A stretch of 64,000 nucleotides of DNA, taken from positions 62,001 through 126,000 of the forward strand of contig QCFE01000002.1 in assembly GCA_003278425.1 (NCBI GenBank), in the 5' to 3' direction. Shown one piece after another: positions 55,015 to 62,425 of this stretch (positions within the stretch are counted from its first letter, which is position 1; the number at the start of each line of letters is the position of its first letter). Source of the stretch: Prochlorococcus sp. AG-363-B11. Its GTDB lineage: Bacteria; Cyanobacteriota; Cyanobacteriia; PCC-6307; Cyanobiaceae. Made by a program: the position numbers and the translations under genes. The notes beneath the pieces are model-generated. The model did not search any database and was not told where the DNA came from. It was given only the letters and a program-made list of their open reading frames with translations.

Positions 55015-55716
<702 letters not shown>

Positions 55717-55764: not shown

Positions 55765-56232
55765 ATGAAATCCGCAGTTACTACTGTCATTTCTTCAGCA
55801 GATGCATCTGGGAGGTTCCCAACTCTCAGTGATATTGAATCTGTTAAAGGCTCTTTTGATAGGGCTGCTTCAAGATTAGAAGCAGCAGAAAAACTTGCTA
55901 TTCATATAGATAGATTTACGTCTGAATCTCTTGACTATGTATATGGGACTCAGTCATATGACCAGGCTAATAAAGATAAGTGTGCCAGAGATATTAATCA
56001 TTACCTAAGATTGATTAACTATTGCTTGGTCACTGGTGGGACTGGACCTCTTGATGAATGGGGGATAGCAGGCATGCGTGAAGTTATAAGAGCTCATCAA
56101 TTGCCCACTGCTGCCTATATAGAAGCATTAACTTTTATTAGAGATAAGGTGAATATTCCTGGAGATATGGGCCAACAGGCTGCCACTGAGTTTAAGGGTC
56201 TGCTTGATTATTTGATTAACGCTTTAGCTTAA
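55765..56232 (+). CDS. cpeA: Phycoerythrin alpha subunit (shortened)
   Basis: CpeA pairs with CpeB. The start MKSAVTTVISSADASGRFP and GGTGPLDEWGIAGMREV are diagnostic. At 155 residues it is about nine shorter than the typical 164-residue form, the loss lying around residues 58-66 before KDKCARDINHYLRLINY. That Cys (residue 73) corresponds to the alpha-82 bilin site. The second common site (alpha-139, usually near RDRLCVP) reads RDKVNIP here, so it is absent. A strong AGGAGG ribosome-binding site lies 8 nt upstream. Confidence 0.95.
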   Translation: MKSAVTTVISSADASGRFPTLSDIESVKGSFDRAASRLEAAEKLAIHIDRFTSESLDYVYGTQSYDQANKDKCARDINHYLRLINYCLVTGGTGPLDEWGIAGMREVIRAHQLPTAAYIEALTFIRDKVNIPGDMGQQAATEFKGLLDYLINALA

Positions 56233-56879: not shown

Positions 56880-57773
56880 TTACTTGCTATCAATTTTATT
56901 TAAACTTAAACTGAGAATATTAATCACTTCGGGATCCTTTTCTTTAAGAAGTGACTCTTTAAGTGCTTGCTTTTGTTTTATAGCTTTTAATTTCATTAGA
57001 GAAAGTGCAGATTGTTTCCTAACTTGCGGGTTCCTTGACTTTAATCTTTTAGCTAAAAGATTAAGATCCCAATCTTGGTCATTAAGAAAACCCATTAGCT
57101 TAATAGCTTCGATTTGAACTTCAACTGATGGATCATTTATTGCATTAGTAAGAATATCTTTTGCATCTGTGTCGTTAAGTAATTGAATTTGTTCTCCAAG
57201 GGCTGCAATTGATGACGCGCGAACTCTTTCATTATTTGATAATGCACCTCTTTTAAGAATTCTGGCTCCCTTAGCTCCTATAAAAGAAAGCCCCCAGCTT
57301 GCTAATCCACATTGCATTTCGGAACTGCTTGGACTTTCAAGAACCTCCAGGAAATTTTTTGCAGCATCTTCACCAAAAATTGCCATTGCTCCGACTGCTG
57401 AACCTTGTACCACTGGATCTTGATCATTTAAGAGTGCATGTAACAGATCAGGTAGAGCTGCAGGGTCGCCTATGAGCTTTAGTGTTTTTGCCGCTGCCCT
57501 TCTTGTCGTGACACTTTGACTGTTTATCAAGGCTTCGCGTAATTCAGGAAGAGCAGCTTTTCCAATGATCCCAAGGCTTTCTGAAAAAGTTCTTCTAAGC
57601 AGACCTCTTTTATCACCTAGTCCAGAAATCAGCTTTTTAATTGACAGTATATCTGCCTCAGGTTTTTGCCCTTCTTTTAATTTTTCTTTTAATTCCGCAG
57701 CTAGGTTTGCAGCTTCTTCTGAACTAAGAGCTTTATCTTCGGTGAAAATGTTTTGTTGGTATTCTTCTGGCAA
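56880..57773 (-). CDS. CpeF/MpeU/MpeV-like HEAT-repeat bilin lyase
   Basis: A 297-residue protein built of HEAT repeats. SSEEAANLAAELKEKLKEG near the start, then GDKRGLLRRTFSESLGIIGKAALPELREAL, TTRRAAAKTLKLIGDPAALPDLL and NDQDPVVQGSAVGAMAIFGEDA are typical of the CpeF/MpeU/MpeV group. CpeF attaches the doubly linked bilin at CpeB Cys50/61, and both cysteines are kept here. It is transcribed opposite cpeZ and cpeY, convergent with cpeZ (11 bp) and divergent from cpeY (79 bp). Which subgroup it belongs to is not certain. Confidence 0.8.
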   Translation of the reverse strand: MPEEYQQNIFTEDKALSSEEAANLAAELKEKLKEGQKPEADILSIKKLISGLGDKRGLLRRTFSESLGIIGKAALPELREALINSQSVTTRRAAAKTLKLIGDPAALPDLLHALLNDQDPVVQGSAVGAMAIFGEDAAKNFLEVLESPSSSEMQCGLASWGLSFIGAKGARILKRGALSNNERVRASSIAALGEQIQLLNDTDAKDILTNAINDPSVEVQIEAIKLMGFLNDQDWDLNLLAKRLKSRNPQVRKQSALSLMKLKAIKQKQALKESLLKEKDPEVINILSLSLNKIDSK

Positions 57774-57852: not shown

Positions 57853-59187
57853 ATGAAAGCAGGACATTTTGATAATCTTCCACCATTAAGTAAGAACGAT
57901 GCGTTGAGAATTTTAAAAACCCCTATAAACAAATTAGCTTTGTCAAGTGATTATTATAAAGCTGTTTTTCACCTTGCCAAATTTCATTGTTCTGATTCTG
58001 AAAGAGCTCTTCTAGAATTAGTTCAATCTGATTCTAAAGAACCCTCGATTCTTATTGCAAAGAGAAAAGCAATTGAAGTGTTAGGGAGAATGAAGTGTAA
58101 AAAAGCAATTCTACATATAGGTAAGAATCTCAAAAGTTTTGACCCTTATATTGTAGAGAACTCCGCCTGGGCATTGCAAGAAATTGGTTGTACTAATATT
58201 GAGCTTCACAATACTATAGGAGTATTACTAGACAACCCAAAGAATAACCAAAGAGTTCTTATTCAAAGTTTGGCTAAGATGAATGCAATTACAGAACTTT
58301 CAAGAATCCAAAAAGTTAACTCTAAAGAAAATATAGCTCCACCAATTAAAGGCGCATGCATAGCCGCTATAAAGATCCTAACTGGTAAATTGAATGACCC
58401 TAATCTATTAAGGGAGTTCTTAGATCTTGATAATCAAAATGATAGACAATCGGCTGTGCAAGATATTATTGATTCAAAAGCATGCCATTTCTTAGTTGAT
58501 GTTATTCATACCCCAATAGCTCCTTTCTTTAGATTAAGAGCACTTGATTTTCTTTGGCCTACTATTCAAAATGAAGGTTTAGAATTTAATATCTTAGAGG
58601 CTATTGATTTTGTGATCTTAGATGACCCTAGGAAAATAAGACTAGTTAAAAATGAGCAACAATTTTTTGACACTGATACTTTGCTTAATGATCTATTTAA
58701 TACAGATTTTAAGGAATGTTATTCCTCACTAAATAGACTTATCAATATTCCACCAAATAATATATTAACATCTTTAAAATATAATTTGAATAAATTTAAA
58801 AAAGACTATGGGGCAATTTATTTTCTTATAGTTCTTTTTCGATATTTAGGAGTATATTCCGAAAATTTTAAGAAATTAGGAATGGAATTAGTTTCACATT
58901 GCTTAGATAAATCCTGGTCTCCATTTATGAAATTCAAACCTCAGGCAATCTTGTTATCATTCGAGCTTGACATTGATTTTTTTAAGATGAATATTAGTAA
59001 TTGGTTGGATGAGAGGTTAACACCTAGCTGGATATGTCGTTATTCAGTGCTAATTTGCCTTGAGAAACTAATTCAAGATAAATCACTTGATCTTAATATA
59101 GAAGAAATGTTAAAAAATAATTTTGACTCTAATGAATTTATTAGGCTAAAATCAAAGAAAATCCTTTCTCAATCTAGTTTTAAATAG
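57853..59187 (+). CDS. cpeY: CpeY bilin lyase subunit
   Basis: A 444-residue HEAT-repeat protein. ALSSDYYKAVFHLAKF, KRKAIEVLGRMKCKKAI, DPYIVENSAWALQEIGC and PIAPFFRLRALDFLWP match the CpeY family. CpeY is the catalytic partner of CpeZ for bilin attachment to CpeA at the alpha-82-type cysteine, the only candidate site left in this CpeA. It is convergent with cpeT, 14 bp apart. Confidence 0.88.
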   Translation: MKAGHFDNLPPLSKNDALRILKTPINKLALSSDYYKAVFHLAKFHCSDSERALLELVQSDSKEPSILIAKRKAIEVLGRMKCKKAILHIGKNLKSFDPYIVENSAWALQEIGCTNIELHNTIGVLLDNPKNNQRVLIQSLAKMNAITELSRIQKVNSKENIAPPIKGACIAAIKILTGKLNDPNLLREFLDLDNQNDRQSAVQDIIDSKACHFLVDVIHTPIAPFFRLRALDFLWPTIQNEGLEFNILEAIDFVILDDPRKIRLVKNEQQFFDTDTLLNDLFNTDFKECYSSLNRLINIPPNNILTSLKYNLNKFKKDYGAIYFLIVLFRYLGVYSENFKKLGMELVSHCLDKSWSPFMKFKPQAILLSFELDIDFFKMNISNWLDERLTPSWICRYSVLICLEKLIQDKSLDLNIEEMLKNNFDSNEFIRLKSKKILSQSSFK

Positions 59188-59201: not shown

Positions 59202-59783
59202 TTATCTTTCACATAGTTTGTTGAACTCTAAAAAACCACTTTCTGATCCCCAGACTTTTTGCGATGTATTTATATCAAAACCTTCATCTAAACTTAGGAA
59301 TTTATACTTGTTAAATTCAACTGTGCTTACAAGATAAGTTTGCCTTCCATTCCTTTCAATAATGTATTTTCGACTTTGCTTTAAGTGGCCTTTATATGAA
59401 GCATTACTTGACTTGTAAAAATTCATCTCACAGTTTTCTCTAAGATGTAGATTTTCGTTTTTGATTGTTGAGAGGATTTCATCATTAAAACCCCCACCTG
59501 CAAATCGATATGCATCTTCTATTTTGTAGTTTTGCATTATAAATACTTTGCCTTTAATAGTTAACTTACTTACTGCTTGGCGATATGGTGACCAAGGCGA
59601 ATGGTTGTAACTTTGCTCTGAGTAAATACTTATTCCATTAAACAATGACCAAGGTAAAAGCCTAAAATAGATATTAATATGTGCATATGATTTAGGATCT
59701 TTTTCAGCTTGTAGTTTATTACTATACCTTCCACATATTGTATTAATAAAAATAGATTTTTCTTGAGAATCAAGATCATTCAT
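59202..59783 (-). CDS. cpeT: CpeT-type chromophore lyase
   Basis: A 193-residue protein of the CpcT/CpeT family. DPKSYAHINIYFRLLPWSLFNGISIYSEQSYNHSPWSPYRQ, near the N-terminus, is the family core, and EMNFYKSSNASYKGHL follows. These T-type lyases attach bilin to the beta Cys near 153-165, matching Cys163 of CpeB. It lies 10 bp downstream of cpeS in the ppeC-orf55-cpeS-cpeT group. Confidence 0.9.
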   Translation of the reverse strand: MNDLDSQEKSIFINTICGRYSNKLQAEKDPKSYAHINIYFRLLPWSLFNGISIYSEQSYNHSPWSPYRQAVSKLTIKGKVFIMQNYKIEDAYRFAGGGFNDEILSTIKNENLHLRENCEMNFYKSSNASYKGHLKQSRKYIIERNGRQTYLVSTVEFNKYKFLSLDEGFDINTSQKVWGSESGFLEFNKLCER

Positions 59784-59793
59784 ATCAAGGTAT

Positions 59794-60330
59794 TTATTGC
59801 TTTATTTTCCGAATTTCAGAGGCAAATGAAGTTTGAAGTATTCCACTCATGTTTATAGATTTTATTACAGATGAGCGGCATCTTACATTTTTATTTATAA
59901 ACCAAATGCGTTCTTCTGCAATTGTTTGTTGGTAGGTAGTTGAAAAAAATATAGTACCGTCAGACGAAATTTCATAGTTCGAAATTGCTTGGATTGCTTC
60001 TGCATACCCTTTACTTCTTAAAATGATTCCTGAATTGTTTGAGTGTTTGATAGGAATTAATAAACTATGCCCTCTTAGCTGGCGTTGACTTCCTTTAGTT
60101 TCTTCCCAGTTTGATTCTCCTTCCCATTCTATTTCGAAAGGTGAAATTGCTTGATCCTTTGAATATCCAGTTATATTAAGGAAATCTTGAATCTCAGGCT
60201 CATTTTTACTAAGTAGATTGATTCTCAAATTGCTAATTATTTCTTCAAATTGCTTGAAGGCTAACGAGTGACCACTCCTCATAGAGCTCCATTCACCAAT
60301 GCTTTTACTAACAAATTCATCTATCTCCAT
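59794..60330 (-). CDS. cpeS: CpeS-type chromophore lyase
   Basis: A 178-residue CpcS/CpeS-family protein. It opens with FVSKSIGEWSSMRSGHSLAF, the S-type lyase signature, and has the strand-rich lipocalin-like pattern (FEIEWEGESNWEE, GTIFFSTTYQQTIAEERIWF). CpeS of Prochlorococcus MED4 is known to attach phycoerythrobilin to Cys82 of CpeB, which is present here. It starts 11 bp after the small orf55 and precedes cpeT by 10 bp. Confidence 0.92.
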   Translation of the reverse strand: MEIDEFVSKSIGEWSSMRSGHSLAFKQFEEIISNLRINLLSKNEPEIQDFLNITGYSKDQAISPFEIEWEGESNWEETKGSQRQLRGHSLLIPIKHSNNSGIILRSKGYAEAIQAISNYEISSDGTIFFSTTYQQTIAEERIWFINKNVRCRSSVIKSINMSGILQTSFASEIRKIKQ

Positions 60331-60341
60331 TTGGAGCCTAT

Positions 60342-60509
60342 TTAATTATTTTCAGAATCTAATTCCGTTTTCTTGACACTACCATTTTGAATCATTCGTA
60401 CCATTGAGTCGACCATCATTGACATTGCCATTGGAACCTTCTTCCCAGATGGAGTCTTTGAAGATTGATTCCCCGGTCTCTGGTTTGAAGGCGGCCTTTT
60501 AATGGTCAT
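60342..60509 (-). CDS. Small ORF (55 aa) between ppeC and cpeS
   Basis: Not in the ORF track. ATG 60509 to TAA 60342 encodes MTIKRPPSNQRPGNQ then QSSKTPSGKKVPMAMSMMVD and a polar end (SVKKTELDSENN). The basic, disordered N-terminus and Met-rich central helix (MAMSMMVDSMVRMI) are unusual. It fits exactly between ppeC (16 bp gap) and cpeS (11 bp gap), filling what would otherwise be a conspicuous space in a tight operon. I recognise no family. Its position suggests a role with phycoerythrin or its linker, but that is inference. Confidence 0.6.
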   Translation of the reverse strand: MTIKRPPSNQRPGNQSSKTPSGKKVPMAMSMMVDSMVRMIQNGSVKKTELDSENN

Positions 60510-60525: not shown

Positions 60526-61320
60526 TTAATAAATTACGTTATCACTAGATGCATAGCCTTTCCTAAAGCTTGCTGTATTGATAAAGCTTGATGTAGTTGA
60601 CCCACACGGTGAATTCCAGAATCTTTGGAAAGGGACTATATCCTCTCCAAAAAATTCTTCATACTCTAAGGAATCAACTAAGAAATCAACATGTCCAAAA
60701 AAACCTTCTCGGTTGATGAGATTAAGATTTTCTTGTAACTCTTCCTGCTCAGTCAATGGTCTTCCTAATAGATGCATGTAATTAAGTTCTAAGCACCTCT
60801 TTTGAGAGACGCGCTCAACAAAATGATGGCGATAGAAATCTGATTTACTGATTTCGCGAATAAATTCTCTAATAGGAATATCGCCATTCCTTAGCCGCCG
60901 TTCTATTTCAGGAGAGCATTCGCTTCTCATAGGACGTAAATTCCCAAAAACTTGCTTATAAGAAGCCTTAATTGCTATCAAAAGGGCATCATCATCATGA
61001 GGTTGAAAGTTTTTGTAAGTAAATAAATCTCTGGAGCTATGTGTTAACTTAATCCCAGTAATATTTCTTTCATTTGAATATTTCTCCCGCTTAAATGCTG
61101 AACCTACTCTTAACATGTTTTTTTTTGTTATTTCTTTAGGTTTATGTTTCGAGTTAATTGTAAATAAATTACTCTGCCCAGGCATAAATGTACTTCTACA
61201 GTGCATGATATAGGTCATTAGATTGCTACCTGCAATTCTCCCTTTGCTGTAGGCGGAATAAGGTGACTGGGCTATTTCTGAAAGCTTTTCCTCTAGTTGA
61301 TGTTTTAAAGAAATTTTCAT
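60526..61320 (-). CDS. ppeC: Phycoerythrin-associated linker polypeptide
   Basis: A 264-residue PBS-linker-domain protein (about 85-225). YKQVFGNLRPMRSECSPEIE, IPIREFIREISKSDFYRHHF and LNYMHLLGRPLTEQEELQ are the classic linker motifs, followed by FFGHVDFLVDSLEYEEFFGEDIVPF. Linkers organise phycobiliprotein discs; with no phycobilisome core in view it probably organises or anchors phycoerythrin at thylakoids. It is the first gene of the group that continues with orf55, cpeS and cpeT. Confidence 0.92.
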   Translation of the reverse strand: MKISLKHQLEEKLSEIAQSPYSAYSKGRIAGSNLMTYIMHCRSTFMPGQSNLFTINSKHKPKEITKKNMLRVGSAFKREKYSNERNITGIKLTHSSRDLFTYKNFQPHDDDALLIAIKASYKQVFGNLRPMRSECSPEIERRLRNGDIPIREFIREISKSDFYRHHFVERVSQKRCLELNYMHLLGRPLTEQEELQENLNLINREGFFGHVDFLVDSLEYEEFFGEDIVPFQRFWNSPCGSTTSSFINTASFRKGYASSDNVIY

Positions 61321-61780: not shown

Positions 61781-62425
61781 TTGAAAATGAAGAAGTTTCG
61801 CAAGTTTCTTTCAATTACTTTCATAGTTGGATTGTTTGTTTTATTAGTATTTCTGATCCAAACCTATGGAATTGAACCCCTTCGAGAGGCTGTTGAAGAG
61901 ATGGGTATCTGGGCTCCTTTTGGAATACTTATGCTTAGGGGAATTAGTGTAATTCTTCCTGCCCTTCCTAGCTCTGTGTACTCTCTTTTAGCGGGTTCTC
62001 TGCTTGGATTTAAAACAGGATATATAACTATTGTTCTGTCCGACCTTATTTTTTGCCAAATGGCTTTCTTCATAGCCAGAAAATTTGGACGAGGGCCTGT
62101 GCGTCGATTAGTTGGAGTTAAAGCAATGAGAAGAATCGAAGGTTTCAACCAAAATCAATTAGAAGGCAATTTCTTTTTAATGACAGGACTTCTTATGACA
62201 GGACTTTTTGATTTTCTTAGCTATGCCCTGGGAATTGGAGGAACTCGCTGGCGCCTCTTTACTCCTGCTTTAATTATTAGTTTATTAATTAGTGATTCTA
62301 TTATTGTTGCTGTAGGTGCTGGGGTAAGTCAGGGAGCTGGTTTATTGTTAGGGGCCGCTTTACTTGCAATGTTTGCACTTGCAACTATCACTGGCTTTAA
62401 ACGAAATAAAAGATCTAGTTCTTAA
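61781..62425 (+). CDS. TVP38/TMEM64 family membrane protein (DedA-like)
   Basis: A 214-residue protein with about five to six hydrophobic helices. GIWAPFGILMLRGISVILPALPSSVYSLLAGSLLGFKTGY is the SNARE-associated/DedA signature region, and FFIARKFGRGPVRRLVG follows. Family members act in lipid scrambling and envelope homeostasis, though cyanobacterial roles are unknown. It stands alone after a long intergenic region and before an AT-rich, gene-poor stretch. Confidence 0.88.
   Translation: MKMKKFRKFLSITFIVGLFVLLVFLIQTYGIEPLREAVEEMGIWAPFGILMLRGISVILPALPSSVYSLLAGSLLGFKTGYITIVLSDLIFCQMAFFIARKFGRGPVRRLVGVKAMRRIEGFNQNQLEGNFFLMTGLLMTGLFDFLSYALGIGGTRWRLFTPALIISLLISDSIIVAVGAGVSQGAGLLLGAALLAMFALATITGFKRNKRSSS

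Follow-up and report, generated by a model that had tools for sequence, protein, structure and literature searches.

The window, a stretch of 64,000 nucleotides from Prochlorococcus sp. AG-363-B11, contains a phycoerythrin gene region in which ppeC, unk6, cpeS and cpeT follow one another in that order on the minus strand (Table 1). The unk6 frame runs from ATG to TAA over 55 codons, with a gap of 16 bp from the end of ppeC and of 11 bp to the start of cpeS, as an earlier note on this DNA had described. A basic, disordered start followed by a helix, also described there, is borne out. Residues 1-26 are rich in K, R, P and S, include no acidic residue, and lead into PMAMSMMVDSMVRMIQ. Scanning the ppeC-cpeT stretch gave zero terminator-like sites where 1.4 were expected, and promoter-like sites at chance level. 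The scan is compatible with a single operon and otherwise uninformative. Low-light and high-light types alike have a VTT/DedA-like membrane protein, recognized by eye, beside the phycoerythrin locus (window 61781-62425; L125:7351-7986).

Table 1. Features of the phycoerythrin region in the window
Feature	Position	Strand	Basis or remark
cpeB/ppeB, phycoerythrin beta subunit, CpeS substrate	55189..55710	+	PF00502 match G000:C2:117189-117710
cpeA/ppeA, phycoerythrin alpha subunit	55783..56226	+	PF00502 match G000:C2:117783-118226
HEAT-repeat protein	56880-57773	-	
CpeY-like lyase	57853-59187	+	
cpeT, T-type lyase gene	59202..59783	-	PF06206 E=7.2e-52
cpeS, S-type bilin lyase gene, constant downstream neighbour of unk6	59794..60330	-	PF09367 E=2.9e-54; synteny
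unk6, 55 aa MTIKRPPSNQRPGNQSSKTPSGKKVPMAMSMMVDSMVRMIQNGSVKKTELDSENN	60342..60509	-	ATG...TAA frame, conservation; equated with unk6 of Six et al. 2007
unk6 conserved helix, residues 27-43 MAMSMMVDSMVRMIQNG	60381..60431	-	alignment: near-invariant core of the family
unk6 residues 1-26	60432..60509	-	basic, Pro/Ser-rich, predicted mostly disordered
ppeC, phycoerythrin linker gene, upstream of unk6	60526..61320	-	PF00427 E=2e-39

On the basis of position, size and distribution, the frame is taken to be unk6 of Six et al. 2007 (Genome Biol 8:R259, PMC2246261). In that study unk6 of Synechococcus encodes 57-61 amino acids, is very well conserved among PE-containing strains, and belongs to the phycoerythrin portion of the rod gene region for marine Synechococcus phycobilisomes (PMC2246261). 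It also occurs in Prochlorococcus, lies upstream of cpeS in both genera, and is "often missed by annotation software"; RCC307 and two PE-lacking strains are without it in Table 4 of that paper (PMC2246261). Likewise, the frame stands directly upstream of cpeS in the window and at every PE-locus relative examined, and most members here have 52-63 amino acids. The Synechococcus members (L056-L062, L126) have 60-61 and the same helix as the window's Unk6. Strong conservation, missed annotation and absence from an RCC307-like genome (G036) agree as well. The difference is that unk6 is missing here from the cpeS locus of one genus (g56) and from three high-light-type genomes. The frame had been called unlisted, which is true of annotation pipelines, but Six et al. 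had already named it (PMC2246261). A literature search for later work returned only Six et al. 2007, where no function is assigned. The gene is therefore already known and is not a new kind of system. What is added here is its retention in a minimal high-light module, quantified constraint, a fixed coupling, clade-specific losses and a wider helix family.

Constraint on unk6 and its junction with cpeS

A genome search found the frame open and similar in 12 of the 14 genomes of the window's genus, the two without it being incomplete assemblies (67% and 54%). A collection scan added 47 loci, from marine Synechococcus and from Prochlorococcus, the latter including both single cells and isolates such as MIT 0701. 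Across 51 distinct Prochlorococcus sequences, pN is 0.138 and pS 0.721 for residues 1-44, while the helix (26-43) has a pN of 0.055 and a pS of 0.708, a ratio of about 0.08. The neighbours at the same loci have pN/pS values of 0.330/0.728 (cpeS), 0.308/0.768 (ppeC) and 0.335/0.758 (cpeT), so unk6 is much more constrained than any of them, and its helix, judged by pN, is under the tightest constraint of all sequences compared. The other two forward frames are closed in all 51 sequences. unk6 is a real gene, and purifying selection on it is very strong.

At every PE locus examined that has unk6, cpeS follows directly, and at the loci of the collection scan cpeT comes next wherever the flank was covered. 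With start codons assigned by script, 48 of 68 distinct sequences, spanning Prochlorococcus and Synechococcus, share an overlap of exactly 11 nt between unk6 and the start of cpeS, and the remaining junctions fall between -26 (high-light type) and +19. On the other side, anything from 0 to 317 nt (1,260 in L052) separates unk6 from the linker gene, and in Synechococcus the gene upstream is a different linker. The conserved partner of unk6 is cpeS, not ppeC. The earlier note saw an operon-like filling of the ppeC-cpeS space; the gaps are real, but the ppeC side is variable and it is the cpeS junction that is fixed in most clades. Most Unk6 proteins have a conserved acidic C-terminus (DEN/DGN/DED), which is a by-product of overlapping the start codon of cpeS. 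The window's own sub-lineage has gaps of 9-16 bp in place of the overlap, yet its helix is unchanged, so selection acts on the peptide and not on the junction alone.

Retention and loss of unk6

High-light Prochlorococcus has a single degenerate phycoerythrin subunit, for which a photoreceptor role has been suggested (PMC4890579). One genus in our set (g17) has genomes of about 1.4-1.8 Mb and a residual cpeB as its sole phycoerythrin subunit gene, and is probably high-light Prochlorococcus. Its locus reads cpeB -> <- cpeS <- unk6, with no ppeC, cpeT, cpeY/Z or cpeA there (L125:6031-7232, L188-L206). Among 87 such genomes that are at least 90% complete, unk6 is present in 84 and cpeS in the same 84. 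G263, G373 and G387 are without unk6, cpeS and cpeB. Because the three genes are linked, each of these losses may reflect one deletion; more telling is that unk6 was retained when ppeC and cpeT went. Across 20 high-light-type loci, pN is 0.055 for Unk6, 0.178 for CpeS and 0.123 for CpeB. The helix of these orthologues reads VTSAKRLMVDSMVRMIQKA, so that "Met-rich", an apt description in the window, does not hold universally. In one high-light-type assembly (L199, G615) cpeS is in two pieces by a frameshift and unk6 is intact, possibly through an assembly error.

Elsewhere, unk6 has been lost from beside cpeS. Genus g56, which would correspond to an LLI-like low-light clade, keeps ppeC and cpeS with a gap of about 40-50 bp and no unk6 (L150, L152, L155); the g56 genomes matched by the family profile described below carry an unlinked Unk6 paralogue instead. 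In the RCC307-like genome (L140), cpeS is separated by 30 bp from a linker gene, again with no unk6. Both have CpeS with no adjacent unk6, so unk6 is not indispensable for CpeS. It had been expected that the frame would be conserved in strains with ppeC and cpeS and that the gap between these genes would not vary freely. This holds only in part, since g56 has the pair without the frame. Even inside one genus, unk6 goes with CpeS: G125 has both, and G022 has neither, only a paralogue at another locus. G018, G022, G035, G047 and G049 have only weak CpcS-type CpeS-like matches and only the third kind of paralogue described below.

A helix shared by three protein groups

The constant part of the helix is [LM]M[VI]xSxVxM[VI]Q. 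In the N-terminal region, TPSGKKVP is conserved in Prochlorococcus and different in Synechococcus. AlphaFold2 predicts one helix for the single chain, at residues 31-48 with pLDDT of about 70-77, and a whole-chain mean pLDDT of 64. One helix face is formed by M29, M32, V33, M36, M39 and I40. The hydrophobic moment is moderate and in several clades is not distinct from that of shuffled sequences. We also modelled a natural-order Unk6-CpeS read-through chain, in which the TAG stop of L022 is read as a residue. CpeS folds well in this chain, but the Unk6 block means are 70-71 vs 70-77 alone. The absence of any gain in helix confidence does not support Unk6-CpeS docking. The earlier note knew no family for the peptide, and we find none: Unk6 is without a match in Pfam (to E=1), NCBIfam, PHROGs or PDB sequences (to E=10), and its relatives have no linker match at E=10. 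An S-type bilin lyase subunit of the CpcU kind was rejected because Unk6 has no PF09367 match, as was a phycobilisome linker polypeptide, for want of PF00427 or any other linker domain. A virus-borne gene was rejected too, there being no relative in viral contigs, phage records (best E about 2) or PHROGs.

A family profile matches 354 of 400 Cyanobiaceae genomes; none of more than 200 other cyanobacterial genomes has Unk6. The helix is common to three protein groups, all confined to Cyanobiaceae. The first is unk6 at cpeS, including divergent freshwater forms (G057 ...INMMIDTWVHMVQAGR, G030 ...RDLMINSLVHMVQAAR). The second comprises unlinked Prochlorococcus proteins with C-terminal coiled-coil-like 11-residue repeats of the type DLERVDQRARA (L013-L015, L099-L106, L131:4251-4601). 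At two loci (L047 and L051) the cpeS-adjacent copy itself bears a tail of this type, tying the first two groups together. The third consists of proteins of about 80-100 amino acids ending ...DALSMMVSSMVRMVQAGKxSDSRW, found in other, mostly larger Cyanobiaceae genomes. These are encoded within a conserved chlI-ruvC-fthC-[x]-sufE-hom order, with a HAIESS protein before sufE (L128-L130, centre), the gene names coming from reading translations and not from a family search. Outside Cyanobiaceae this group gave no convincing match, only a weak one (E=0.015) with an in-frame stop. Profile comparison joins the first and third groups with a probability of 96% (E=2.6e-9), although the match is short, 20 columns, and could be convergent. 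The earlier note suggested that the peptide could be phycoerythrin-specific. This may be true of unk6, but proteins encoded away from phycoerythrin genes have the helix as well. Its presence at a chlI-ruvC-fthC-sufE locus unrelated to phycoerythrin raises the possibility that the partner of Unk6 is something general.

Possible roles of Unk6

CpeS is the lyase by which phycoerythrobilin is joined to CpeB, the phycoerythrin beta subunit, at Cys82, an activity reportedly established for MED4 by Wiethaus and co-workers in 2010. Because unk6 is conserved and travels with cpeS in ocean picocyanobacteria, its product is most probably a small peptide that helps in phycoerythrin production. More precisely, we propose that Unk6 is an accessory peptide of CpeS-dependent CpeB maturation, to which we give a probability of about 0.48, the mechanism being the conjectural part. 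Unk6 would be translated as a small protein with a short disordered basic N-terminus and one conserved amphipathic helix. It would be co-expressed with CpeS and, in most clades, translationally coupled to it. The Met/Val/Ile face of the helix might dock on CpeS, nascent CpeB or the complex of the two, and Unk6 might then help the chromophorylated subunit to fold, to be handed over or to be placed. Such a role would be accessory to CpeS and CpeB, not obligatory. The strong constraint on the helix, the fixed cpeS junction, retention with cpeB and cpeS alone, and absence where those are absent support this proposal. Counting against it are CpeS without adjacent unk6, the possibility that the high-light losses are single deletions, the lack of any gain in AlphaFold2 helix confidence in the Unk6-CpeS chain, and the helix away from phycoerythrin. 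Of the roles suggested in the earlier note, that of a phycoerythrin accessory, chaperone or membrane-attachment peptide, what stands is that unk6 is a real gene in the phycoerythrin operon and linked to maturation. Its tie, however, is to cpeS, and high-light types keep unk6-cpeS without ppeC.

Unk6 can be compared with two known kinds of protein. S-type bilin lyases of the CpeS/CpcS family (PF09367) have partner subunits such as CpcU. Unk6 presumably acts in the same step, as an S-type lyase partner, but it has no lyase domain, is not a CpeS homologue, and consists of one helix between disordered flanks. NblA-type proteins are small phycobilisome adaptors and are likewise small, helical and connected with phycobiliproteins. 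The Unk6 motif differs from theirs, as far as NblA is generally known, and Unk6 matches nothing in Pfam or NCBIfam.

Two other roles are each unlikely, to about the same degree. Unk6 could serve phycoerythrin structurally, as a micro-linker or membrane-attachment peptide, its helix binding either assembled CpeB/PE or the surface of the thylakoid. An amphipathic helix with an M/V/I face, a basic N-terminus and the keeping of unk6 with CpeB in high-light-type genomes would fit, as would the fact that classical phycobilisomes do not house the phycoerythrin of Prochlorococcus. However, the moment is only moderate and shuffle-like in several clades, the gene is coupled to cpeS and not to cpeBA or ppeC, paralogues that share the helix are encoded elsewhere than near phycoerythrin genes, and there is no match among solved structures. 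Alternatively, Unk6 could be a small regulator that tunes the level of CpeS or PE, such as a proteolysis adaptor, with the helix docking on a general factor shared by all Cyanobiaceae. The occurrence of the helix in three Cyanobiaceae groups, including the chlI-ruvC-fthC-sufE-hom locus of genomes with only weak CpcS-type matches, is consistent with this, and unk6 can go while CpeS stays. On the other hand, no regulator fold, metal-binding or DNA-binding motif was seen in Unk6.

It is far less probable that unk6 is a mere leader ORF, setting cpeS translation by coupling and encoding a peptide without function. The 11-nt overlap in most clades is what such an ORF would look like, but the helix residues are conserved and not just the overlap (pN/pS about 0.08), the window's sub-lineage keeps the helix after losing the overlap, and unlinked paralogues retain it. 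A chance ORF, conceivable for a short frame in an AT-rich genome, is ruled out by conservation across Prochlorococcus and Synechococcus, by pN/pS and by fixed synteny.

The unit kept in the high-light-type genomes is one of three genes, cpeB, cpeS and unk6, not two, and unk6 is the most constrained of them. Reconstituting high-light phycoerythrin without Unk6 may be incomplete. The helix in three Cyanobiaceae protein groups also points to an unrecognized docking module. In its broadest and decidedly speculative form, [LM]M[VI]xSxVxM[VI]Q would be a Cyanobiaceae-only helical module with at least three uses, by cpeS, in coiled-coil proteins and at the chlI-ruvC-fthC-sufE locus, that brings clients to one shared cellular partner. 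Unk6 would then be its phycoerythrin-operon member, and part of the minimal CpeB-CpeS-Unk6 unit of the most reduced ocean phototrophs.
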